Origin: Methylacidiphilales bacterium
Lineage (GTDB): Bacteria; Verrucomicrobiota; Verrucomicrobiia; Methylacidiphilales; UBA1321
Length of the DNA: 64,000 bases
Reading direction: 5' to 3'
NCBI GenBank assembly: GCA_021272315.1
Contig: JAJSLI010000021.1
Location: 1-64,000 of the forward strand
In this document: one piece after another, positions 6,166 through 26,831 of the stretch
Layout: each line of letters opens with the position of its first letter
Position numbering within the stretch: position 1 is the first letter of the stretch
The notes under the pieces: model-generated
What the model saw: the letters and a program-made list of their open reading frames with translations, nothing else
The model's database searches: none
What the model was told of the DNA's origin: nothing
Made by a program: the position numbers and the translations under genes

Positions 6166-6963
6166 CTATTCCTTCTGCGACAGGACCTGTTGATTGCTTG
6201 TTTCCAGCGCCTCGACTTTTTCACGCAACAATTTCATTTCTTCGAGCACCAGCTTGAGTTCAGAATCTTCCTCTTTTTGCATTTTTTGCATGGGTTCAAG
6301 AAAGACGGTGGCGATGTAAGCCGTGATGCAGCCAAAGAGGCAAACGCCGGTGGCCATCAGGAAAAGCGCGACGGCGCGTCCGCCCTCGGTCACGGGATAT
6401 TTTTCGCAGGAGACCGTGGTGATGGTGCTGAAGGACCACCAAAGCGCGTCTTCCGATGTTTTGATGTTTGAATCGGGCGAGAAGGTTTCAAAATTCAGTA
6501 CAGCGATGGCCGAGAAAACCGCGACCAGAAAGGAAACGAGAATGACCGAAATCACTCCGGTCCGGGCCCGGTGCCGAAAGAGAAAGTGCGCGATGATTTT
6601 GGTGGAGCGGAAAGCGCGGAGAATGCGGAACATCCGGATGATTCGAAGCAAGCGTATGTGGTTGGAGGCGGGCAGGAATAGAATTGGAATGCTGGAAATA
6701 AAATCGATCCAGCCCCACTTCATAAATTCGAGCTTGGAGGGCGCTTTCCAGAGCCGAAAAAAGAAATCCCATAAAAAGAAAACGCAGACGACCAAATCCA
6801 TTCCATCGAGAATTTCGTTTGTTTCCGGTGAGAGATCACGGACGAAGGTTTGAATGGCAAAAACGATGAGGACGTAAACGGAAAGAATCAGAATGATGAT
6901 CTGAAGCATGCCGGGTTCATCGGACTCCTTGTTTGCGACCGCTTCGTTTTCTGGTTCGGGCAT
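6166..6963 (-). CDS. Voltage-gated-like ion channel / ion transporter, C-terminal coiled coil
   Basis: S4-like RLLRIIRMFRILRAFRSTK; pore region WWSFSTITTVSCEKYPVTEGGR; further TM helix after the pore. Confidence 0.85.
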   Translation of the reverse strand: MPEPENEAVANKESDEPGMLQIIILILSVYVLIVFAIQTFVRDLSPETNEILDGMDLVVCVFFLWDFFFRLWKAPSKLEFMKWGWIDFISSIPILFLPASNHIRLLRIIRMFRILRAFRSTKIIAHFLFRHRARTGVISVILVSFLVAVFSAIAVLNFETFSPDSNIKTSEDALWWSFSTITTVSCEKYPVTEGGRAVALFLMATGVCLFGCITAYIATVFLEPMQKMQKEEDSELKLVLEEMKLLREKVEALETSNQQVLSQKE

Positions 6964-7167
6964 AATCGGAAGTTTTTAGACAAGAGCCGTTTGAACTGTG
7001 ATGCAAACAGGTGACGTTCTGGTGTCATTTCGACTAAGCGGTCGGATGCAGGGCAATGAACCGGCTTCCGTTTCAACGACGGGGATTGTCACAAAATTGG
7101 CACGGTACAGTCGTTGACGACCGGCTCGGTTTCACGTTGGCTTTATGGAATTATCCAAAGGAGGCCC

Positions 7168-7818
7168 ATGTTATTTTCGGAACAAACTCCAGCCAGTGAT
7201 CGCAACGGAATCAACTCCGGGTTTCCTCAAGGTACAAGCCACACGCTGCGGGAGATTCTCGAGGCTAACCGCGCCTATGCTGAAAATTTTGGCGATAAAG
7301 CCAGGCTGATCGGCGCGCCCCGCCGCCGCATGGCGATTTTAACCTGCATGGATGCGAGGATGGATCCCGCCAAGTTCAGCGGACTAAACGAGGGCGATGC
7401 CCATGTTATTCGCAATGCGGGCGGGCGGGCCAGCGACGATGCCATCCGCTCGCTCGTTGTGTCGTGCAAGTTAATGGGCACAACCGATTGGTTCGTCATA
7501 CACCACAGCGGCTGCGGCATGCAGTCCTACACCGATGACGAAATCAGGCATTTGCTTGGACTGGATACCGATGAGCATCCCGAAGGCAGCAAGTGGCATG
7601 ATGTCAAAAAAAGCGCCCAAACGCCGGCCGATATTCATTGGCTGACCTTCAGTGACCTGGTGCAAAGCATCGTTGATGATGTCAAACGCATCCGCCAACA
7701 TCCGCTCGTGCCACCCTCGGTGGCGATTTGCGGCTACATCTACCACATACATCACGGCATGCTGGAGCCCGTGCCCGAGGCGAATCGGATCGGAGCGCCG
7801 CAGATGGAGCCAGCCTAG
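7168..7818 (+). CDS. Beta-class carbonic anhydrase
   Basis: LTCMDARMD...HVIRNAGGRASDDAIRSLVVS...VIHHSGCGM; SD AAAGGAGG upstream of ATG 7168 (ORF track opens at 7114). Confidence 0.9.
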   Translation: MLFSEQTPASDRNGINSGFPQGTSHTLREILEANRAYAENFGDKARLIGAPRRRMAILTCMDARMDPAKFSGLNEGDAHVIRNAGGRASDDAIRSLVVSCKLMGTTDWFVIHHSGCGMQSYTDDEIRHLLGLDTDEHPEGSKWHDVKKSAQTPADIHWLTFSDLVQSIVDDVKRIRQHPLVPPSVAICGYIYHIHHGMLEPVPEANRIGAPQMEPA

Positions 7819-8237: not shown

Positions 8238-8645
8238 CTAACCGCCAAAGGTGCCGGTGGCGAGGGGTGCTTCCGCTTTGGTGACAACAACCGGCTTGCG
8301 GCGTGAAACCTTGCGCTTGGGCGAGGGACGGACCCTTGAAAACCCGGCATGCTGGCCATTGCGACGAGAGATCGGTGGGGCGAACGCTTCGCCGGGTTGC
8401 GTTGCTTTCGCCGTGCTGTGGCGGCGCGCGCGGGTACGCGAGGGCTTTGTTTCCGCATACATCGCTTCGGTGGCGAAATCCTCCACACCGGCAGCGGAAA
8501 GAAAATCACCCAAGTCGGCCATTTGGAGACCAAACTTTTCAAGAAGCGGTCCTATTTTTTTGCGCAGCTTTCCCCAATTCGCGCCAACAGCAACACCCGC
8601 TCCAAAGGCAATTAATCCGGTAAGAACAACGTCACGTCTAGGCAT
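8238..8645 (-). CDS. Small protein with N-terminal GxxxG hydrophobic helix and basic, Ala/Arg/Lys-rich tail (YtxH/DUF-like)
   Basis: MPRRDVVLTGLIAFGAGVAVGANWGKLRKKIGPLLEKFG...RRKPVVVTKAEAPLA. Confidence 0.65.
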   Translation of the reverse strand: MPRRDVVLTGLIAFGAGVAVGANWGKLRKKIGPLLEKFGLQMADLGDFLSAAGVEDFATEAMYAETKPSRTRARRHSTAKATQPGEAFAPPISRRNGQHAGFSRVRPSPKRKVSRRKPVVVTKAEAPLATGTFGG

Positions 8646-8773: not shown

Positions 8774-9499
8774 ATGACTGCCGCAGCTCTTCCCGGTAAT
8801 ATCCTCGTTCTACCCAGGACGGCCACTCGCTCCCGTAAGAAGGCACCTGCTAAAAGCGCGACTGCCGCCCGATCCGGGGCCAGACGCGCGGGGAAAACCG
8901 AGGTCCGTGCGGTGCGCACGTCTAAAATTTTGCGCGATCTCTTGGAAAAAAACCCGGACAAAAGTTTTACCGTGCAAAAGATCGTCGATTCCATCGGGGG
9001 CTCCTCCTCCTTCGGCACCTCCCTGCTGGTTTCTTCCATTCCGGAAGTCCTGCCAATCCCGATACCCGGTATTTTTGCCATAGTCGTCATTCCCACCGGG
9101 ATCATCTCGGCGCAGATGATCGCAGGTAATAAACAGCTCAAGCTGCCCAAGTTTATTTTAAAGCGCACCATTCACCGCAAGGCCTTGGCTACCGCCATCC
9201 ATGCCATTCTCCCTTTTTTGGAAAAGACCGAGAAATACGTCAAACCGCGCTGGCAATGGGCGGTGCATCCGGCGTCCCGGCGATTTATCGGTGCGTTCAT
9301 CCTCCTGCTGGCGGCGGCCATGGCCCTGCCGGTCCCTTGGACCAACATGCCGCTGGCCATTTCCATCTTTATCATCGCGCTTGGTCTCATCGAGAAGGAT
9401 GGCATGATGATCACTCTGGGCATTTTGATAGGATTAGCATCATTGGCTTTTCTTGGGGGAATCATTTGGGGAGCGTTATCGCTATTTAGCATGCTTTAA
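8774..9499 (+). CDS. ExoD-like exopolysaccharide synthesis family membrane protein with a basic N-terminal extension
   Basis: VQKIVDSIGGSSSFGTSLLVSSIPEVLPIPIPGIFAIVVIPTGIISAQMIAG and C-terminal TM helices. Confidence 0.8.
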   Translation: MTAAALPGNILVLPRTATRSRKKAPAKSATAARSGARRAGKTEVRAVRTSKILRDLLEKNPDKSFTVQKIVDSIGGSSSFGTSLLVSSIPEVLPIPIPGIFAIVVIPTGIISAQMIAGNKQLKLPKFILKRTIHRKALATAIHAILPFLEKTEKYVKPRWQWAVHPASRRFIGAFILLLAAAMALPVPWTNMPLAISIFIIALGLIEKDGMMITLGILIGLASLAFLGGIIWGALSLFSML

Positions 9500-9589: not shown

Positions 9590-10021
9590 ATGGCCACCAA
9601 AACCCGAAAACTTGAAACCAATGCATTTTCCGTTCTGGGCGATGCGCTTGAATCCGCAGCCGAGAGCTTTGAAGAGGTCACTGTAAATGCCCGGGATTCC
9701 GCGAAGAAGGCCGCGGCGACCACCCGCCGGGCTTTAAGCAAAGGCGTCCACAGGACCGGGTATGGAATTTCTTACGGCGTGATTTACGCCGCAGTTTTTT
9801 TGACTGAATTGTTTCCCGAGGAAAATCCCTGGCGCCGAGGCCTGGAGGAAGGCGCGCATGATGCCTTGGAGGAACGGAGCAGGATTCGCGAACAAAAGAC
9901 CAAGAAAAGCAAGACTTCCGCCAAATCCAAAACGGCCGCCAGGACCAAAAAACCCAAAGCGAGCAAAGCCGTGAAAGCGCGCGCCGATCAGTTTGACGCT
10001 GCGGTTGAAGCGACCGCTTGA
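9590..10021 (+). CDS. Small protein with one hydrophobic segment and a Lys/Ala-rich (histone-H1-like) C-terminal tail
   Basis: GYGISYGVIYAAVFLTELFPEENPWRRGLEEGAHDA followed by KTKKSKTSAKSKTAARTKKPKASKAVKARA. Confidence 0.65.
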   Translation: MATKTRKLETNAFSVLGDALESAAESFEEVTVNARDSAKKAAATTRRALSKGVHRTGYGISYGVIYAAVFLTELFPEENPWRRGLEEGAHDALEERSRIREQKTKKSKTSAKSKTAARTKKPKASKAVKARADQFDAAVEATA

Positions 10022-10076: not shown

Positions 10077-12680
10077 TTGAAAGAGAGGGTACGTTTTATG
10101 TCTTCACCCGAAACGGCCCTGGCCACCCTTGAGCCACCGCGTCAAAATGGGAGTTACAATGGCTCGTCTAAAGCGCGTCTGAAAGTTTTACGTCCCGTTG
10201 CCAAACGCAAGCGGCCTCGCCTGCGGGATGATCTGCAGGTGCTTTTCCCCGGGCCGGGCCGTCTTGAATTTCGAAGCGAGAGCAGATTTTCCACCTGGAA
10301 CAACAACCGTTGCCGCCAGTTTATCGAGTTAAGTCTTGGGATTCACGAAGTCCGCGAAGTTGAAATCGATTCGTTCAACCGGACAGCTGCGGTCGTTTAT
10401 CGTCATGGTGGAAATTCCTCACAAGTCGTCCGCAAGATCGCCCGAATATATCGAGGCGACCTTGCGCCCGATTCCCGCCCCACCCTTTCACCCGAACTGC
10501 TTCGCGCGCTGCCGAAGAGTCAGCCGACCTTGCGCGCCTTCCGCTACGGCGAGGTTATCAGCACCTGGGAGTTACGCATGCAGCTACCCGGCTGGATCCG
10601 GCTGCGCAACGCGCTGGTTCTGAACAAGCCCCACCTTGCCCGGTATCTTGAAAAGGAACTGGTCAGCCTGATGGGTATCAAGCACCACGAAATCCATGTG
10701 CGTGGCGGCAGTATTACGATCGAGTTTAATCCGCAGATCATCCACAAGCAGCAAATCGTCAGTCATCTTGACGCTGCCCTCTGTCGTGCTCCCAAGCGTC
10801 CGCTCAAGCAGGTGGGCGATCACCACTTCAAAATCGCCTCCGCATCACTGGCCCTCTCCGCCACGGCGACTTTTTTCAATCCCGCTCTGCTGCCCATCGG
10901 CGCGGTGCTGATGCTTTACACGGCCATTCCCAGTTTTCGCCGGGCCTATCATTCGATGCGTCACGAGCGCCGGCTGGGAATCGATTCACTCGACACGATC
11001 ATCTTCACCGCGTGCCTGTTTACCGGAGAAATTTTTGCCGGTGCCATGACGGCATGGTTCCTCAGTCTTGGCCGCAAACTGCTTAAGCAGACACGGGCGG
11101 AATCCGCCAAGGTCCTGCTGCAAATGTTCGGCAAACAACCCACCCTGGCCCGCGTGTTGAAGGATGGAAGGGAAATCGAAACGGACCTGGAAAAAATCAA
11201 GCGCGATAATCGCATCGTGATATACACCGGAGAAGTGGTGCCGGTCGACGGCGTCATTGTCGAGGGTGATGCGATTTTGGACCAACACGCGCTCACCGGG
11301 GAATCGGCCCCGGCGGAAAAGAGTGTGGGCGGCAAAGTCTTCGCCTCGACGGTGATGCTGGCTGGAAAAATCGTGGTGCGCGTCGAACGTGCGGGCAAGG
11401 ACACCGCTTCAAGCAAGATTAGCCGGATTTTGAACAAAACCGTCGCCCACAAACTGCGCGCGCAATCGCGGGGCGAAGAACTGGCCGACAAGGCGGTGCT
11501 GCCCGCCTTGGGATTATCCGCCTTGGCGGGAGGAACCGTTGGCGCCAGCGGAGCCTTGGCCGTCATCAATTCCGATTTGGGCACCGGCATCCGTATGGCG
11601 GCGCCGCTGGGCATGCTCACTTCGATCACGCTTTGCGCCCAGCAGGGCATTCTCGTGAAGGATGGCCGGGCATTGGAGTTGATGCGGAATGTAGACACCG
11701 TTCTTTTCGACAAGACGGGGACCCTGACCCGGGAAAAACCGGAGGTCGGGAAAATCCTTTGCTGCGGAGACTATCCGGAAGAGCAAATTTTGACTTTTGC
11801 CGCCGGAGCTGAACAAAAATTTACCCATCCCATCGCCCGCGCCATTCTCGATAAATTTGCCGCGTTGAAAAGACCCATGCCGCGCTTGGATGCCTCCAAA
11901 TACCATGTCGGTTACGGAATTACGGTGGAGATAGAGGGCTATACGGTGCGCGTGGGCAGCCGCCGCTTTATCGAAATGGAAAACCTCGCCATCCCGGACA
12001 GAGTCGAGTTGGAGATGAAGGAATTACACGCGACGGGACATTCCTTTGTTTGCGTGGCCATCGGGAATCAACTGGCCGGTGTCATCGAATTACAATCCTC
12101 GCACCGGCCCGAGGTGGAGGAAATCATCTCGGGTTTGCGCACCCGCGGCGTGAATCACATGGCCATTATTTCCGGCGATCATGAGAAACCGACGCGCCGT
12201 CTGGCGGAACACCTCAAGATGGATCGCTATTTCGCCGAAGTCCTGCCGCAGGACAAGGCGCGCTACGTGGAGCTTTTGCAGAAGGAAGGCCGCACCGTCT
12301 GCTTTGTCGGCGACGGGATCAACGATTCCATCGCGTTGAAAAAAGCGAACGTTTCCATCTCGCTCCGGGGCGCGTCCTCCATTGCCACCGATACCGCGCA
12401 AATCGTTTTCATGGAAGAAAGTCTGGCCAGGATTTGCGACTTGAAGGATTTCTCCCTGGCTCTTGAACATAACGTGCAGAGGAGTTGGAACCTCATTCTG
12501 ATGCCGAACGGTTTTTGCATCGCCGGCGTATTCCTTTTCGGTTTCAACATCTGGCATTCGGTTTTTTTCAACAACGCCTCCGCCATACTGGCATTGTTGA
12601 ACGGTTTGCTGCCTTTGCGCAAGGCGGCGAGACTGCACGAGGAACGACAAAAGAGCCGTCAGTTGTTGGTGGAAATTTAA
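10077..12680 (+). CDS. P1B-type (heavy-metal-like) P-type ATPase lacking the canonical CPx motif
   Basis: LTGES, LFDKTGTLT, VGDGINDS present; TM motif before the P-domain reads GIRMAAPLGMLTS in place of CPC/SPC; basic N-terminus. Start may be the ATG at 10098 (MSSPETALATLEPP). Confidence 0.9.
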   Translation: MKERVRFMSSPETALATLEPPRQNGSYNGSSKARLKVLRPVAKRKRPRLRDDLQVLFPGPGRLEFRSESRFSTWNNNRCRQFIELSLGIHEVREVEIDSFNRTAAVVYRHGGNSSQVVRKIARIYRGDLAPDSRPTLSPELLRALPKSQPTLRAFRYGEVISTWELRMQLPGWIRLRNALVLNKPHLARYLEKELVSLMGIKHHEIHVRGGSITIEFNPQIIHKQQIVSHLDAALCRAPKRPLKQVGDHHFKIASASLALSATATFFNPALLPIGAVLMLYTAIPSFRRAYHSMRHERRLGIDSLDTIIFTACLFTGEIFAGAMTAWFLSLGRKLLKQTRAESAKVLLQMFGKQPTLARVLKDGREIETDLEKIKRDNRIVIYTGEVVPVDGVIVEGDAILDQHALTGESAPAEKSVGGKVFASTVMLAGKIVVRVERAGKDTASSKISRILNKTVAHKLRAQSRGEELADKAVLPALGLSALAGGTVGASGALAVINSDLGTGIRMAAPLGMLTSITLCAQQGILVKDGRALELMRNVDTVLFDKTGTLTREKPEVGKILCCGDYPEEQILTFAAGAEQKFTHPIARAILDKFAALKRPMPRLDASKYHVGYGITVEIEGYTVRVGSRRFIEMENLAIPDRVELEMKELHATGHSFVCVAIGNQLAGVIELQSSHRPEVEEIISGLRTRGVNHMAIISGDHEKPTRRLAEHLKMDRYFAEVLPQDKARYVELLQKEGRTVCFVGDGINDSIALKKANVSISLRGASSIATDTAQIVFMEESLARICDLKDFSLALEHNVQRSWNLILMPNGFCIAGVFLFGFNIWHSVFFNNASAILALLNGLLPLRKAARLHEERQKSRQLLVEI

Positions 12681-12694
12681 CCGCGAAAAATACG

Positions 12695-13543
12695 ATGATC
12701 CAGATACTGTTGCCGGGAGAAAGTTCGCTGAGCAAGGTTGAACTTCAGGATACCAAGAATTTTCGCGACCAGTTGGGCAGGGCGCGCTGGGTCGATTTAT
12801 TCGACCCCGAACCACACGAGGAAAAATTCCTGGAAGAGGTGTTGAAGCTCGACATTCCCAGTCATGAGGAAATGACGGAAATTTCCGAATCGAGCCGCCT
12901 GTTCGTCGAGGGGGATGCTCTCTACTTGTCGTGCTGGTTGCTCTGCTATGAGACGGCCATTCCGCAAAACGCCTCGATCTCCTTTATCATCACGCCAAAG
13001 CACTTCATCAGCATCCGCTACTCGGACCACCACGCCTTCCGCATTTTTCGCAGCGCGCAGAAAGGCATCCAGCACCACCGCTTCCGCAGTTCGGATGGGG
13101 CGTTGTTGGAGGTGCTGGAGGCGGCGGTGGGGCACATCGCCAGCACCCTGCGCTTGATCGAACAGGACCTGAATAGTCTCTCGCTGGTCATCTTCGGGGA
13201 ACAAAAAAAGCAAAAAACCGGGGCTCCCAATATGGGGCTGAAACGCATCGTTCAGCGTCTCGGCAAACGTAACTCTCTTGTGGCCAATTTGAGGGAAAGT
13301 GCTGTCAGCCTATCCGCGTTGACGCCATTTTTGATCGAAAATGTCCGCGACTGGATGAACCCCGATCTCAAGCTTCGGTTTGAGATTTTGGTGAAAGACA
13401 TCGAGTCGTTGCGCGAGTACGATGGCCAATTGACGTCGGAGATCGGTTTTCTGCTCGACTCCACAGTTGGTCTCATCGGCTACGAGCAAAATCAGACCAT
13501 GAAGTTCCTAAGCGTGGCTGCCCTGCTGGTCGTTTTTGTCTAA
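12695..13543 (+). CDS. CorA-like transporter soluble domain, truncated before GMN motif
   Basis: CorA-family features (SFIITPKHFISIRYSDH, NLRESAVSLSALTPFLIENVRDWM..., IGYEQNQTMKFLSVAALLVVFV then TAA). ORF track opens at 12485, overlapping the ATPase; ATG 12695 preferred. Confidence 0.75.
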   Translation: MIQILLPGESSLSKVELQDTKNFRDQLGRARWVDLFDPEPHEEKFLEEVLKLDIPSHEEMTEISESSRLFVEGDALYLSCWLLCYETAIPQNASISFIITPKHFISIRYSDHHAFRIFRSAQKGIQHHRFRSSDGALLEVLEAAVGHIASTLRLIEQDLNSLSLVIFGEQKKQKTGAPNMGLKRIVQRLGKRNSLVANLRESAVSLSALTPFLIENVRDWMNPDLKLRFEILVKDIESLREYDGQLTSEIGFLLDSTVGLIGYEQNQTMKFLSVAALLVVFV

Positions 13544-13561: not shown

Positions 13562-15679
13562 ATGGCCAAGCATACGACCCATCTGGCAATCATTCCAGCT
13601 CGTCACAACGGCGCCACTCGCCGCCCAACGCGCTCAACGACCCCCAATGGTGGTCTCCGGGACATTCATGCCAGAATGACCGGCGGCAACAGGACCCTTC
13701 ACTTGCAAGGCGATCTCCTGGTCGAAGCTTTGTCCCACACCACGCGGCGAGACTTGATCGACCGCTTTTTTGCGCTTCCCAGGTTGAGCTTCTTGCACCT
13801 GAATACCCGCAAGGGCAAGGCGCGCCTTCACTTCGAAGAAAAAACGACCAAGTCGGAAGTTCTCACTGCCCTGGCCGTTATCATGCGCAGCCGGGTCATT
13901 GAGCGTCTTCCTCTGGCCAATGATCACTTGCTTCTTGATGAAGAGCATCCTGACGCGATTGAAATCAGCCGTGTGGGCCGTGAATTGACGTTCTGGCGGA
14001 TTGAGATGCGCAACCCGGGACATTATCGATTGTGGCATCCGCTGCTTCACTCGGACATCGCCCGGCAGCAGGTTTTGCAAGAGTTTGCCACCCTGCCCGA
14101 TGTCGTCAGGAAAGCGCCCTCCTTCCTTCATCGGGCCGCCATCCATATCTGGGTCCGCCCGCACCGGATCGATCCCGCGCATTTGATCGACATACTCGAT
14201 CCCGTGTTGGCCGACTACATGGTGGGACCAACGGAGATCGCGCGCCAGCCCTTCAAGGAAGCCGTGATCAACGCCAATCTTGCGCTGTCACCCATCTCCG
14301 ATTTCCTCTTTCCACCGGTCGGGCTGGCCAATGCGGTCCTGGTCGGCGCCATCAATCGCAGCCACATCATGCCGGCTTTTCGCGACCTGCGCCACGGCCG
14401 CACCAACCTGCATCTGCTCTATCTCTCCATCGGTGGGCTGACCCTTCTCACTTTCAATTTCTTCGCGGCGGCGGTCATGTATTGGCTCCTCCTATTTTGG
14501 CCGCGCGAGGCCAAACGCCTGCGGCAGCAATACGAAACGGACTTTCTTTCCTCTTACCGCCGCCGACCCCTGCGTGTCTGGGTGGAACGCAAGGGATCGG
14601 TCATTGAAACCCGTGTGCGGGAACTCACGCCCGAAAGCGTTGTTGTGCTCAATCCCGGTGATCTGGTTCCGGGTGATGGCGTCGTATTGAGCGGCAGCGC
14701 CAAAATCGACGATCGCCGGATCACCGGTGCGATGGAATCCCAAACCAAGACGCAGGGAGAACCGGTTTACGCTTCAAGCCAGGTGCTGGAAGGAGAACTG
14801 CGCATTCAGGTCCGCTCGACGAACGAGGACTCGGCCGCGGCCCGCATTGCGGCCTGGTATGTCGAGAATCTGAAAATCAACCCCGAACACCAAAGCCTGC
14901 GGGCCAATGAGTATGCCGAGTCCGCGGTGCTCCCGGTTTTGCTGATCGGCCTGCTGGGTCTTTACCGTGGAGGTCTCTCCATGGCCAAGGCCGCAATTCG
15001 CCCGGACTATCTGACCGGACCGATGATCGCTGAGGACTTTGTCGACCTCGCGATGACGATTCGCGCCGCACGGGAAGGCATCCTGCTCGCCAACGCCTCG
15101 TCCCTCGCCGCGCTCGCCACCTGTGACTGCCTTATCCTTGACGACACCGTCCCTTGGAACACCCGCGGGCTGGAAAGCGGCGACTTCGCGGACCGCGTTC
15201 ATGACCACGGCGTTTCGGAAATAGCGTTTCTATCGGGAGAAAAGTCCAGCGCCGTTTCCAAATCGAATTTCGATGCCATCCGTCACGAGTTCACCACGGA
15301 GGCGAAACGGGCCTACATCGCCCAGCGGCAACATTTCGATCACATTGTGGCGTATGTGGGCGATTGCCAGGCGGAAGCGCCGGTGGCTGCCCAGGCTGAT
15401 CTTGCCATCTCCGTGCTGACGCCTCCCCATGTCACGCCGCACGGCACGCAAGCCGCGCTTTTGGGCGCCGATTTAATCAAGATTTTAGGCCTGTTGAATC
15501 TCGTCAAGGAATCTCGCGCCGAGTTTAAGACCGCTTTCGGCGTCAGCCTCGTGCCCAATGCCGCCTCGGTCATCGGCGCGCTCTATTTCCACACGCATGT
15601 GGAAACCTCGGTGATTCTCAGCAACCTCGGTACTCTGGCGAATTACCTGCGTTACCGTTCCATGATGCGTTTGGAATGA
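13562..15679 (+). CDS. Degenerate P-type ATPase-like protein (predicted pseudoenzyme)
   Basis: Collinear with the ATPase at 10077-12680, but TGES->ITGAMES, DKTGTLT->LDDTVPWNT, GDGIND->GDCQAEA; intact 705-aa frame. Confidence 0.82.
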   Translation: MAKHTTHLAIIPARHNGATRRPTRSTTPNGGLRDIHARMTGGNRTLHLQGDLLVEALSHTTRRDLIDRFFALPRLSFLHLNTRKGKARLHFEEKTTKSEVLTALAVIMRSRVIERLPLANDHLLLDEEHPDAIEISRVGRELTFWRIEMRNPGHYRLWHPLLHSDIARQQVLQEFATLPDVVRKAPSFLHRAAIHIWVRPHRIDPAHLIDILDPVLADYMVGPTEIARQPFKEAVINANLALSPISDFLFPPVGLANAVLVGAINRSHIMPAFRDLRHGRTNLHLLYLSIGGLTLLTFNFFAAAVMYWLLLFWPREAKRLRQQYETDFLSSYRRRPLRVWVERKGSVIETRVRELTPESVVVLNPGDLVPGDGVVLSGSAKIDDRRITGAMESQTKTQGEPVYASSQVLEGELRIQVRSTNEDSAAARIAAWYVENLKINPEHQSLRANEYAESAVLPVLLIGLLGLYRGGLSMAKAAIRPDYLTGPMIAEDFVDLAMTIRAAREGILLANASSLAALATCDCLILDDTVPWNTRGLESGDFADRVHDHGVSEIAFLSGEKSSAVSKSNFDAIRHEFTTEAKRAYIAQRQHFDHIVAYVGDCQAEAPVAAQADLAISVLTPPHVTPHGTQAALLGADLIKILGLLNLVKESRAEFKTAFGVSLVPNAASVIGALYFHTHVETSVILSNLGTLANYLRYRSMMRLE

Positions 15680-21280: not shown

Positions 21281-22663
21281 CTATCTGGTGCAATATTGCA
21301 GCAGCTCGTGGTGGACCGCCTCAGCGGCGATGGATCTCGCCGTGTCCTCAAAAGAGCAAGGTTTCTCGGTCAGCAACACGGGCGAGTCGTTTTCATCCTC
21401 GGGGCGCCTTCCATGCGAACCCCGCACAAGCGCGGCATCGAGCGGGATCACCTTCAACAAGCCCCTGAGTCCGAGTTTTTTTCGCAGCAAAAAGGCGGCG
21501 ATGCGCAGATGAGGCCAGCGTAGTTTGGGGTCAAGAAACAGTTCCGCTGGATCGTAGCCCGATTTGCGATGAATATCGACCGTGCGCGCGAAGTCGGGAG
21601 CAAGCGCATCATCCTCCCAATAATAGTAGGTGAACCAACTGCGCGGTCTGGCCACGGCAATGAGATCGCCGCTGCGTCGGTGTTGGATTCCCCATTCCGT
21701 TTGCGCATGGCGGTCCAAAACCAGTTCGACGCCCGGTTCCGACTCGATGGCCGTGCGCACCTTCGATTCCAACGCGCGGTTGTTGAGATAAATGTGGGCA
21801 ACTTGATGGTCCGCGATGGCGAAAGCCTGACTGGCTCCGCAGTCGAGTGTTTCCAGGCCAAGTTCATCTTTAAGCGCGAGCCAGCCGTGGCGGCGGAAGA
21901 GACGGTTAAGGTGGATGGGCGTGTTGACTTCCGTGATTCCATATTCGGAGAGCACGGCGACCTGAACCGACCGCTTCTGGAAAAAATCGATAAGGTCGCC
22001 GACCAGATCGTCCACCAGGCGCAGATCATCTTCGATTTTGGGATCGCGCGGTCCGAGGCGTTGGAGGTTGTAATCGAGGTGCGGCAAATAAACCAGGCTG
22101 AGCGTGGGTCGATGTCGTTCCTCGATCCAGCGTGCGGCATCAGCAATCCACCGCGAGGAGCCTATCCCCGCCATCGGTCCCCAAAACTGGGTGAAGGGAA
22201 ATTCACCGAGATCTTTCTTTATTTCCGGACGCAGCGAGAGCGGTCCGGTATGGATGTCGAAAATCTTGCGGCCATCAGCGGGATAGAGCGGTCGCGGCGT
22301 GATGGAGTAATCGACGGCGGCATGCATGTTGTACCACCAGAAGAGTTGGGCGCAGGTGAAGGAAGAATCCTGCGTGCGCAGTTTGTCCCACAATTTCGGA
22401 CCCGCCACGAGATGGTTCGATTGCTTCCAGAAATGGACCTCGGCCAACTCTCGGTCGTACCAGCCGTTGCCCACGATGCCATGCTGCGCCGGCGGCAGGC
22501 CCGTTAGGTAACACGATTGGGCGGTGCAGGTGACTGCCGGGAAGGCCGGACAGATCGTGCTTAATTGCCCGTTGCGGGCAAAGGCCGAGAGCCGCGGCAT
22601 GGCCGGGCCGAGCAGCGCGCGGGTTAGACCTACGACGTTGAGAACCACGGTGCGGCGTATCAT
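21281..22663 (-). CDS. eboF: Alkaline phosphatase / nucleotide pyrophosphatase family (EboF-like)
   Basis: FPAVTCTAQSCYLTGLPPAQHGIVGNGWYDRE...LVYLPHLDYNLQRLGP...AVLSEYGITEVN; position in ebo-like cluster. Confidence 0.82.
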   Translation of the reverse strand: MIRRTVVLNVVGLTRALLGPAMPRLSAFARNGQLSTICPAFPAVTCTAQSCYLTGLPPAQHGIVGNGWYDRELAEVHFWKQSNHLVAGPKLWDKLRTQDSSFTCAQLFWWYNMHAAVDYSITPRPLYPADGRKIFDIHTGPLSLRPEIKKDLGEFPFTQFWGPMAGIGSSRWIADAARWIEERHRPTLSLVYLPHLDYNLQRLGPRDPKIEDDLRLVDDLVGDLIDFFQKRSVQVAVLSEYGITEVNTPIHLNRLFRRHGWLALKDELGLETLDCGASQAFAIADHQVAHIYLNNRALESKVRTAIESEPGVELVLDRHAQTEWGIQHRRSGDLIAVARPRSWFTYYYWEDDALAPDFARTVDIHRKSGYDPAELFLDPKLRWPHLRIAAFLLRKKLGLRGLLKVIPLDAALVRGSHGRRPEDENDSPVLLTEKPCSFEDTARSIAAEAVHHELLQYCTR

Positions 22664-22667
22664 GGGT

Positions 22668-23858
22668 TCAGATGGCGACGGGTTGCAGCTTGGAACGACG
22701 CGCCAATTCCAAAATGCTTTCCCGCATCAACGCGGCATCGATTTCGCGCACTTCCACGCCGCGACCGATCTCCTTTAGCAGAGTCACAGTCAATTCTCCT
22801 CCGAGATGCTCACGAAATTCCTCCAAGCCGTCGAGAAGAAGCAAATTTCCGGTCGGGTCGATTTGTGCCATAAGCGGATCGAAGATGGAGAAGCCCAGCT
22901 TCAGGATGAGGGCAAGCGCGCGGTCGGTCGCAACGCCGGAAAACATGCCCCTTTTGTGACTGTAGAGGGTGTCGAGCGCCAGTCCCAAGGCAACCGCCGC
23001 GCCGTGTGAAATCGTGAAGGCCGACATTTGCTCCAGTTTGTGGGCTGACCAGTGACCAAAATCGAGCGGTCGCGCGGAGCCGAATTCAAACGGATCGCCC
23101 GATTCCGCGATATGCCGGACATGGAGTTCCGCGCAACGGCGAATGATCCGTTCCATCGCACCGTTTGCAAGGAGGGCCAGATCGTCCGTCGAGTGCTCGA
23201 TCTCCTCAAAGAAAGCGGCGTCTCGAATCAACGCGACCTTGACTGCCTCGATCAATCCCGCCCTTTTCTCCACCGGGGGAAGATGACTCAGAAACTCGCT
23301 GTCGTTGATAACCGCGAAGGGCGGCGAAAATGTTCCGATAAAATTTTTCTTACCAAAGGCATTGATGCCGTTTTTTACCCCAACGCCACCATCAGCCTGG
23401 CTCAGCGTCGTGGTGGGCAAACGAATGTGTCGCACACCACGATGGGCGGTGGCTGCGGCAAACCCTGCGGCATCGAGCAACGCTCCGCCACCGATGGCGA
23501 GAAGGTAGGAATGCCGGCAAACGCCGTGTTGTTCGATTTGACGATGAAGCTCATCGACCAGATCGCTATTATTTTTTGCCGCTTCTCCTCCCAGCGCAAC
23601 GAGAGGAGGGCAGACAAGTCTTGCCTGACAGGATTCGAGGGAAAAATAGGAAACGACTTGATCGACCAATAAGGGAAAAGTTCGCACCACACCCTGGTCG
23701 ATGACGACAAGCACTTTCGCCGGGCTTCCTGAAGCCGAGGCGGAAACGAGTCGGGCAAGAAGGTGATTCTGTGGCGAGAATGTGCAGCGCGTGAAGTAGA
23801 TGCGATGCGCGAACGAGACCTTGATCGTGCGTTCGAGGGAGGTCGTCATGTTTGGCAT
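22668..23858 (-). CDS. eboD: 3-dehydroquinate synthase-like (EboD-like)
   Basis: YLLAIGGGALLDAAGFAAATAHRGVRHIRLPTTTLSQADGGVGVKNGINAFGKKNFIGTFSPPFAVIND; start at MPNMTTSLER avoids eboC overlap. Confidence 0.85.
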   Translation of the reverse strand: MPNMTTSLERTIKVSFAHRIYFTRCTFSPQNHLLARLVSASASGSPAKVLVVIDQGVVRTFPLLVDQVVSYFSLESCQARLVCPPLVALGGEAAKNNSDLVDELHRQIEQHGVCRHSYLLAIGGGALLDAAGFAAATAHRGVRHIRLPTTTLSQADGGVGVKNGINAFGKKNFIGTFSPPFAVINDSEFLSHLPPVEKRAGLIEAVKVALIRDAAFFEEIEHSTDDLALLANGAMERIIRRCAELHVRHIAESGDPFEFGSARPLDFGHWSAHKLEQMSAFTISHGAAVALGLALDTLYSHKRGMFSGVATDRALALILKLGFSIFDPLMAQIDPTGNLLLLDGLEEFREHLGGELTVTLLKEIGRGVEVREIDAALMRESILELARRSKLQPVAI

Positions 23859-23872
23859 CTCACACGATGAAG

Positions 23873-24790
23873 TTATGTTGCCGGGACGATGCGTTGCAAG
23901 AGGAGAGCAAAACCGAAGAGGAGAAAAAATTCGGCGGTAGAAAATCCAAGCACTGGGGCAACTGCGATCATGTCGACCAGGACAATGCCTGCCAGCAGGC
24001 CGGAAACAACGCGCCCGATGGAGCGATTCGTTTTGCGCCAGAGCGGGACGAGGAGCCAGGCTATCCAGCCAAGGAACAGGAGACAGAATAAAAGTGGACG
24101 GGTATAGTGATAAGGCAAAAGGACACACATTCCGACTGAGAGCAGGACGGGAAGCAGAAACAACGGGAACGCCCAATGTGAAGGCTTTTCGGGTCGGCTC
24201 TCGCCCCGTGCGAGATAGGTGATTCCGGCAACGTAGACGCCAAGAACGACCGCCGGCGGCAGTACTGACCACAAAAGGTCAGGGTTTACGGAGACCGGGA
24301 CCACAGACCAAAGAAGATAGGGGCTTGATGCGGCTGATGCGGCCAGCAGATACAGGAGGAACCGGCAGAAGCCCATCGTGAGCGGTGCCCAGGAGACATT
24401 TTTGTGCCGGAAATCGTAAAGTACGATGACGGCGAGCAGCAGCAGCGCGATTTCGCTGGTGAGCCAGCAGAACGGAATCAGGCAGGCAAGTCCTGCCGCG
24501 AACCAGAGCACGGCAAGCAAGCCGACCGCGCGCCGGGAAATCTTTCCGGCGGGAATCGGACGCTCCGGATAATACTGGGCGTCGAAATTGGCGTCGCAAA
24601 AATCGTTGAGGAACATGCCACCGGTGTAGAGAAGACTTCCGCCGACAAGCAGGAATGCGAGCGCTTTCAAGTCTATCATCCAGGCCATAATCCAGCCTGT
24701 AATCAGATTGGACCAGACCGTTGGCAGGTTGGAAACGCGCCCGAGGATGAGCAAGGTCCGAAAACGTTCGCGGAGTGATTTCATGCGCAT
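23873..24790 (-). CDS. eboC: UbiA-family prenyltransferase-like (EboC-like)
   Basis: RVSNLPTVWSNLITGWIMA...LLYTGGMFLNDFCDANFDAQYYPERPIPAGKISRRAVG, UbiA motifs. Confidence 0.85.
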   Translation of the reverse strand: MRMKSLRERFRTLLILGRVSNLPTVWSNLITGWIMAWMIDLKALAFLLVGGSLLYTGGMFLNDFCDANFDAQYYPERPIPAGKISRRAVGLLAVLWFAAGLACLIPFCWLTSEIALLLLAVIVLYDFRHKNVSWAPLTMGFCRFLLYLLAASAASSPYLLWSVVPVSVNPDLLWSVLPPAVVLGVYVAGITYLARGESRPEKPSHWAFPLFLLPVLLSVGMCVLLPYHYTRPLLFCLLFLGWIAWLLVPLWRKTNRSIGRVVSGLLAGIVLVDMIAVAPVLGFSTAEFFLLFGFALLLQRIVPAT

Positions 24791-24819
24791 GTTATCGGCT
24801 AAGAGATTCGGCTGAACTG

Positions 24820-24840
24820 ATCCTTCGACAAGCTCAGGAT
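24820..24840. repeat. ATCCTTCGACAAGCTCAGGAT imperfect palindrome (REP-like)
   Basis: Intergenic, ends form ATCCT/AGGAT inverted repeat. Confidence 0.45.
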
Positions 24841-24850
24841 GACGGAATCT

Positions 24851-26005
24851 TCAATTAAGACCACGCTGCGCGAGTTGATTCAGACACCACTCATACTCCC
24901 GGACAAGCTGGTCGACAACTGACTTGGCGCGTAACTCTTCGGGCAGAACTTCCCAAGTGTAGGTTTCCATTTCAAGATGGGAACAGAGGCCGGGTTGCCG
25001 CGCGAGAAGGTCGAGCAGCCCCAGGAGATGGGGCGTGGTGGTCTTGCCATGGGCCAGGTTTGTCGCGTGGAGGGGTACATGAAAATGAATACGCCACTCG
25101 TCGTCTCCGGGCGGTTGGTCGAGGGCCACATCCAAGTCTTTGTCGCGGCGAAGCGTTCCGTCCATCGTCTGGGCGACGACCTGGTGCAAATAGGTGTCGT
25201 CGGCAAAACGCCGGAGCCATTCACGTCCGACTTTGTCAGGCACGATCTGGAGCGCGGAGCTCAGATGAATTTTACTGATGCGGACGCCTTCCTTCTGCAA
25301 GGCGGTGACCACATCGGCGGGTTTTTCGTATTCCACCGCCATGTGACAGGTGTCGTAATTGACACCCAGGAGGGTTCGGAGCCGCGAGTCGCCCGGACGA
25401 TCCGCCTCCATCTCCTGGAAGAAGCGAAGGGTTTCGGCGCTCGTCTCCCATAAGCCGAGCGGTTCAGGTTCCACGCCCAGGTGGAGGCGGCGGCCATGGA
25501 GCACGGAGCATTGTTCGATATGATCGAGGCATCTCCAAAGCTGCCCGCGAATTCGAGTTTTTTGTTCTCCGGTGATGATGAATTCCTTGAAGGAACCGGG
25601 CAGCGTGCTGACGCTTCCCTCGACGCCCTCGGGGAGAAGTTGCGCGAGCAAATCAAAAAGCCGATTGGTGTAAGCCAGCCGCTCGGGATGAGTCCAGTCG
25701 GGAAGATAGACCCGCTCCTTAACCTTGGCTCCGTGAAATTGGCCGAAGGGAAATCCGTTGATCGTGAAAACGTAACACTGATGCTGATGCAACCATCTCC
25801 GGAACGCGTCCAGCGTGCGCGGTTCGCTCAACTGGCGCGATGCTAGGTCGCTCAGACGCAAACCGATGGCGTAGAGTCGGCCGGGACAGACCCGCTCCTT
25901 GACTGCGAGCGTGTACTTTTCAAGCGAGGCCTGGGTTTCCGGCCAATCGTCGCCCCGGTGAATGTTCGTGCAGTAGGCAAGATGGAGATTATTTTTGAGC
26001 CGCAC
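24851..26005 (-). CDS. eboE: Xylose-isomerase-like TIM barrel, metabolite-traffic protein EboE-like
   Basis: [42 protein letters not shown]...[18 protein letters not shown]...[19 protein letters not shown] at 26005 with GGAGG 8-9 nt upstream. Confidence 0.85.
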
Positions 26006-26831
26006 GGCATTTGTCCTCCCAGCCGATTTCATCCAGCTGGAACTTGGGATTCTGGCTCAGAAACTGGATGGGATTTTCGTAGACGAGTCGGTCGACGGCC
26101 TCTTCACTGTGTCCGCGCCGCTTCATTTCGAGGGCTGTTTTCGGAACAGCAAGGGGATCACTTTGGCCCCAATCGCAGGCACAGTTGAGCCAGATACGCT
26201 GTGCCCCGTAAACTTCCACCATGTCGATGGCGCGCGCGGGCGTGCATTTCGATTGAGGATAGAGCGTGATGCCCGCCCAAAAGCCCGCGTCGAGCACCAC
26301 ATCCACAGTGTGCTCTTCGACATGGTCGATAATCACCCGCGCCGGGTCGATGCCCCGGTTGTTTTTAAGAACGTCGACGATAAGACGTGTACCCTTCCAT
26401 TTATCTTCGAGGTGCGGTGTATGAACGAGGATCATCTGGTCATAGCGCACGGCGAGGTCGACCTGCTTTTCAAAAACCGCGACTTCGTTGCGGCTGTTTT
26501 TATTCAGGCCAATTTCTCCGATGCCCAGGACATTAGGCCGGTCGAGGAACGCGGGAATCATCGCGAGAACGTCGTTAGCCAGGGAAAGATTTTCCGCTTC
26601 CTTGGGGTTGAGGCAGAGCCACGAATAATGGGGAAGGCCAAATTGTGCGGCGCGACGTGGTTCGTAATCGGTCAACTGGCAAAAATAATCGTAAAATCCC
26701 TGCGCCGAGCTGCGATCAAACCCGGCCCAAAAAGCAGGCTCACAGACGGCACGGCATCCCGCCGTGACCATGGCCGCGTAGTCATCCGTCACCCGGCTGA
26801 TCATGTGGGCGTGAGGTTCGATGTAACGCAT
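25989..26831 (-). CDS. eboB: TatD-family metal-dependent hydrolase (EboB-like)
   Basis: [42 protein letters not shown]...[28 protein letters not shown]...[10 protein letters not shown]. Confidence 0.88.

Follow-up and report, generated by a model that had tools for sequence, protein, structure and literature searches.

A conserved, catalytically degenerate P1B-like ATPase paralogue encoded beside an active-looking pump and a truncated CorA-like protein

An ATPase gene cluster with a truncated CorA-like gene

In the window (the whole 64,000-nucleotide stretch of DNA that was analysed), genes for an active-looking P1B-like ATPase, a CorA-like protein, and a second, degenerate ATPase, here called the dead paralogue, lie on the same strand with intergenic gaps of 14 bp and 18 bp (Table 1). 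The preliminary description had reported an uninterrupted frame for the dead paralogue and an active-looking paralogue nearby, and both observations hold: a 705-codon ORF is open across positions 13562-15679 of the forward strand, and an intact-looking P1B-type ATPase ORF occupies positions 10077-12680, with one CorA-like gene between the two. The product of the active-looking gene carries TGES, DKTGTLT, HP, and GDGxND, and it scores above the cut-off of the P1B family (396.9 versus 346.25 bits, TIGR01525). Note that the CPC motif is absent from M4 of both ATPases (the active partner has MAAPLGM), and that CxxC is absent from the N-terminus of the active partner.

Upstream, between positions 6166 and 9499, lie genes for an ion channel, a carbonic anhydrase, and an ExoD-family protein that recur near the cluster in other genomes. 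Elsewhere in the window, an Ebo-type cluster on the reverse strand (21281-26831) encodes EboE (NF035939, E=5e-130) and an EboC-like UbiA protein, together with 3-dehydroquinate synthase-like, TatD-like, and phosphodiesterase members.

Table 1 Features of the ATPase cluster and its surroundings (positions are those of the window)
Positions	Strand	Feature	Basis
6166..6963	-	Ion-channel protein shared with the G028 cluster	Pfam, neighbourhood comparison
7114..7818	+	Carbonic anhydrase (Pro_CA), also near the G382 and G393 clusters	Pfam, neighbourhood comparison
8238..8645	-	Small protein (MPRRDVVLTGLIAFGAGVAVGANW...) shared with the G028 cluster; no Pfam/NCBIfam family	ORF, neighbourhood comparison
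8774..9499	+	ExoD-family membrane protein, conserved neighbour in related clusters	Pfam, neighbourhood comparison
9590..10021	+	Small membrane-type protein conserved beside the ATPase cluster; no Pfam/NCBIfam family	Family search, neighbourhood comparison
10098..12680	+	Active-looking P1B-like ATPase; 860 aa when counted from the first ATG, with the ORF opening at TTG 10077	Motifs, family profile
12695..13543	+	CorA-like protein of 282 aa that stops in the middle of TM1 and lacks the GMN loop and TM2	Pfam, alignment
13562..15679	+	Dead P1B-like ATPase paralogue, 705 aa, N-domain deleted	ORF, Pfam PF00122, alignment, purifying selection
14723..14731	+	T388-G389-A390 at the TGE(S) position of the actuator domain; Glu lost in 9/9 dead paralogues	Alignment
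14999..15010	+	RPDY (480-483), M4 region	Alignment
15140..15148	+	D527-D528-T529; Asp in place of the DKTGT Lys, with the phosphoacceptor Asp and the Thr retained	Alignment
15149..15181	+	Approximate junction of the missing N-domain (about 127 aa in the active partner)	Alignment
15233..15235	+	S558, HAD motif II Ser, invariant in 6/6 short dead copies	Alignment
15305..15307	+	K582, HAD motif III Lys, invariant in 6/6 short dead copies	Alignment
15359..15364	+	G600-D601, HAD motif IV; second Asp of GDGxND lost	Alignment

The CorA-like product matches positions 5-243 of the 292 positions of PF01544, and its structure model is poor (pLDDT 44). A stub of this kind lies between both ATPase genes in five clusters (genomes G000, G004, G028, G382, and G393), and each of the five stops at an identical aligned position, with a C-terminus of LSVAALLVVFV or nearly so, whereas the nearest full-length CorA relatives (compared as L076-L086) continue with F(M/L)PPTxxASIYGMN. 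Because the end residue is identical in five genomes, a sequencing error is unlikely to be the cause of the truncation. Readthrough or a frameshift joining the stub to the dead ATPase was likewise rejected, since the relative frame of the two genes differs between genomes (shared in the window, with two stops in between, but not shared in L043 or L044) and none of the frames past the stop yields a GMN continuation. In a search of the class the stubs scored more than 515 bits and the next CorA 235, and the genome from which the window derives has a separate CorA elsewhere that covers positions 4-292 of the 292-position family model. The cytosolic part of known CorA channels holds regulatory ion sites and, by analogy, the stub could act as a divalent-ion sensor. 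The operon thus appears, as judged from the encoded proteins, to hold two transporter relatives that are unable to transport in the usual way beside one that seems able to do so.

Lost and retained motifs of the dead paralogue

The homology of the dead paralogue to P-type ATPases is, by sequence comparison, well above chance. Residues 336-463 match the actuator domain (E1-E2_ATPase, PF00122, E=2.9e-19), the sole Pfam domain found; the NCBIfam P1B profile is matched with E=3.1e-29; and residues 74-531 are 25% identical to the neighbouring ATPase (E=1.3e-32). The Pfam model of the HAD hydrolases is not reached by this protein, and its second half is matched by some of the orthologues. When a profile built from three orthologues was run against the PDB, it matched CopA and ATP7B in their A-domain and P-domain. 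The protein had been described as full-length and P1B-like in layout. Its membrane part, actuator domain, and P-domain are indeed kept, but the nucleotide-binding (N) domain of approximately 127 residues has been deleted, such that the Asp of DKTGT and the Gly of GDGxND are 73 residues apart in the alignment versus 200 in the neighbour. The N-terminus has two HMA-like folds without CxxC metal ligands.

The AlphaFold2 model of the dead protein, built from a shallow alignment of six sequences, is weak overall (pLDDT 60, pTM 0.36), with much of the P-domain (511-650) and two N-terminal ferredoxin-like domains modelled better. When this weak model was compared with known structures by Foldseek, P1B ATPases ranked first (7r0g, E=4e-12) with a low global TM of 0.34, and the P-domain reached a TMt of 0.76 with a piece of CopA (2voy_I). 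P-type ATPases can form oligomers, a point in favour of the pairing proposed below: the matches include, by their entry titles, MgtA dimers and hexameric Pma1.

All three catalytic signatures had been called altered. The altered strings ITGAMES, LDDTVPWNT, and GDCQAEA are present, but the phosphoacceptor Asp is retained, with D-D-T aligned over D-K-T. Among the nine dead copies that we identified (see below), the dephosphorylation motif TGES (TGAM in the window's protein) has lost its Glu, and the second Asp of GDGxND is missing from all nine. The Lys of DKTGT is lost in eight of nine, with Asp in its place, and the motif alignment of the nine shows that the Gly of DKTGT and the Asp of [ST]GD are lost as well; in the window's protein, DDTVPW keeps the Asp and Thr of DKTGTLT and lacks its Lys and Gly. 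The HP motif has disappeared with the N-domain from the six short copies, and its His is lost from the three long ones. Set against these losses, eight of nine copies keep the motif I Asp (the ninth has Glu), Thr or Ser at the DKT position, the motif III Lys, and the Asp of the motif IV GD, and all nine keep the motif II Ser or Thr and the motif IV Gly. The P-domain alignment of the six short copies has 18 invariant columns out of 140, and Asp527, Ser558, Lys582, and Gly600 all fall within these 18; the chance of this is about 2e-4 under random placement, an estimate that takes no account of structural constraint. The alignments therefore argue that ATP delivery and dephosphorylation are gone from the dead copies and that a core suited to phosphoryl and Mg2+ binding (Asp527, Thr529, Ser558, Lys582, and Gly600-Asp601) is kept. 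Note that one dead copy, G008b (L042:5218-7866), differs from the other eight in having Glu at the position of the phosphoacceptor Asp and no motif III Lys. At M4, the place of CPC in classical P1B pumps and of NSDL...MAAPLGM in the active partner, the dead paralogue has RPDY; its Tyr483 occurs in every dead copy and in none of the active ones.

Relatives, co-occurrence, and selection

The nine dead paralogues come from seven genomes of three families. Orthologues without an N-domain were found in G004 (76% identical), G028 (46-47%), G205, G382, and G393, and longer copies with an N-domain in G008 (two) and G205 (one). These longer copies (L040:5462-8188, L042:5218-7866, and L060:12552-15287) are apparent intermediates between the active and the N-domain-less forms. 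In a phylogenetic tree the nine dead copies fall on one side of a branch (support 100/99), the six short ones form a single clade (100/100), and the active copies form another group (98/97); a topology that joins the short dead copies to the active copies was rejected (p-AU 5e-5). Because the tree has long branches we also looked for shared residues, and found that H159, M306, W313, Y483, and L634 are invariant in the dead copies and absent from the active ones. On the simplest history, catalysis was lost once and the N-domain was then lost once.

When a sample of 385 genomes of the class was searched for the active family (cut-off E<=1e-170), it was found in six (G000, G004, G008, G028, G205, and G382), and dead copies were found in exactly those six. 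A seventh genome, G393, which came from a targeted search of one family, also has both. Since the system is in seven genomes only, the co-occurrence rests on few independent events. The distribution of the pair is patchy: seven congeners of the window genome were sampled, and six of them lack it. In a sample of the phylum no further active/dead pair was found, the matches being ordinary ATPases, and three matches from the wider searches (G172, G491, and G660) were set aside as ordinary P-ATPases with their catalytic motifs present. A search for plasmid-borne homologues covering 80% of the query returned none. G008 carries one dead copy on contig L042 and one active copy on another contig, L041; in G205 the active and dead genes do not share an operon, and a CorA stub was looked for there and not found.

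The dead-copy orthologues are intact and in frame, with open frames in nine of nine. The dN/dS (NG86) of the dead gene is 0.117 for the window/G004 pair and 0.081 for G382/G393, values from two independent pairs that indicate strong purifying selection. The corresponding values are 0.028 (C-terminal 549 codons) and 0.034 for the active gene, and 0.078 and 0.037 for the CorA stub; all are approximate because dS is near saturation. Within the dead gene, dN/dS is lowest in TM5-6 (0.05) and highest at the N-terminus (0.21), the P-domain standing at 0.118, and identities of 0.81, 0.90, and 0.51 at the three codon positions agree with purifying selection. At the protein level, the window and G004 share 76% identity in the dead copy versus 93% in the active one.

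Interpretation and comparison with known systems

The preliminary description had favoured a maintained non-hydrolytic partner or regulator over decay, a view that is supported by the intact orthologues, by a dN/dS of about 0.1, and by the co-occurrence in six of 385 genomes. Because operon layout, co-inheritance, and selection all agree, a maintained partner or regulator is the best-supported reading, and we think it somewhat probable that the dead paralogue is a non-hydrolytic subunit or regulator of the pump encoded at 10098-12680, with the pore-less CorA protein as a possible sensor. The dead paralogue keeps its membrane part, actuator domain, and P-domain; normal ATP uptake would be precluded because the N-domain is deleted, and normal dephosphorylation because the Glu of TGES is lost. 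It would pair in the membrane with the active pump and either set the activity of the pump or complete its permeation path, and the pore-less CorA, attached to this complex, would sense divalent ions in the cytosol. We infer physical contact, the regulatory role, and CorA sensing from genomics. Note that adjacency and co-inheritance are possible without a physical complex, and that the separate contigs in G008, the lack of a shared operon in G205, the weak single-chain model, and the small number of genomes also weigh against a subunit or regulator.

Other roles for the dead paralogue were considered. Simple decay is ruled out by dN/dS, by intact frames, and by the shared derived residues H159, M306, W313, Y483, and L634; the dead copy does change faster than the active one (76% versus 93% identity), but with nine of nine frames open, dN/dS near 0.1, and constraint in every domain, a gene heading for loss is exceedingly improbable. 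Retention of the HAD core would allow a phospho-switch or Mg2+-binding role, in which the protein would not be inert: the core would bind Mg2+ and phosphate, or would become phosphorylated by small acyl phosphates or by the active partner in trans, and could not run a pump cycle. The retention of HAD core residues in eight or nine of nine copies while the residues for ATP delivery and dephosphorylation were lost, and the invariance of Asp527, Ser558, Lys582, and Gly600, are in keeping with such a switch. Nevertheless, this retention may serve only the folding of the core, the equivalent of D707 is lost, the DKTGT Lys is Asp, G008b departs at motifs I and III, and the six short copies share ancestry; we hold a switch to be unlikely.

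A role as passive permease, as ion sensor, or as scaffold would fit the conservation of the pump-like membrane region (dN/dS of 0.05 in TM5-6) and the precedent of human TMEM94, whose P-ATPase fold shows no visible Post-Albers cycle (PMC12134183); a protein of this kind would work independently of ATP and of the partner's cycle and would only be co-inherited with the pump. The strict co-occurrence with the active copy and the operon position speak against such a protein, which we likewise judge to be rather unlikely. Ferrosomes depend on FezB as transporter and on FezA as membrane protein (PMC12574912), FezB being a P1B-6 ATPase, and small membrane-type proteins stand beside the pump here, so that the dead copy might be a structural membrane component of a similar metal-storage organelle; but ExoD, the CorA stub, and carbonic anhydrase are not among the ferrosome parts described in the literature examined, and a system of this type is very improbable. 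A further proposal, a heteromeric P-type pump composed of the catalytic ATPase, an N-domain-less paralogue whose phosphoryl/Mg2+ site would act as a receiver-like switch, and a pore-less CorA divalent-ion sensor, is unlikely; if true, two former transporters would regulate a live one.

The usual picture of a P-type pump is one catalytic chain, joined at most by helper subunits that are small or unrelated. In the literature searched, in which subscription journals are thinly covered, no case of a dead paralogue accompanying a P-type pump was found. If a catalytic P-ATPase were always accompanied by a dead, N-domain-less copy, this would be a new way of controlling such pumps. The staged series of active copies, dead copies with an N-domain, and dead copies without one makes the evolution of a pseudo-pump directly testable, and the CorA stub, which adds a second former transporter to the operon, is a finding in its own right.

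The dead copy shares with P1B-type ATPases (CopA/ZntA, TIGR01525) the A-domain, the P-domain, and the membrane layout. Unlike them, both it and its active partner lack CPC and a CxxC domain, and the dead copy further lacks the N-domain and the catalytic signatures. The CorA stub shares positions 5-243 of PF01544 with the CorA magnesium/cobalt channel but ends before PPTxIASIYGMN, and hence is without the selectivity loop and the second TM helix. The FUPA24 proteins of mycobacteria (CtpH/CtpI) are unusual bacterial P-ATPases whose function is unknown and which carry extra non-pump sequence (PMC3573892); they are, however, single long chains with functional motifs present, and there is no separate dead paralogue.

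The closest precedents are TMEM94 and prozyme. Human TMEM94 (ERMA) has a P-ATPase-like fold and its proposed phosphorylation Asp, lacks TGES, and shows no Post-Albers cycle in six cryo-EM structures (PMC12134183); its status is disputed, in that another report presents it as an ER Mg2+ pump (PMC13322241). Like the dead copy, TMEM94 is P-ATPase-like with the phosphorylation Asp position filled and TGES absent; unlike the dead copy, it is eukaryotic, has ten TM helices, and still contains an N-like domain. We know of no active paralogue that acts as a partner of TMEM94. In Trypanosoma brucei, prozyme is a dead paralogue of AdoMetDC that heterodimerises with the live enzyme and activates it (PMC5201418). 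AdoMetDC is a soluble decarboxylase whereas the system here is a transporter, and what the two have in common is a dead paralogue that is kept by selection and accompanies an active copy.
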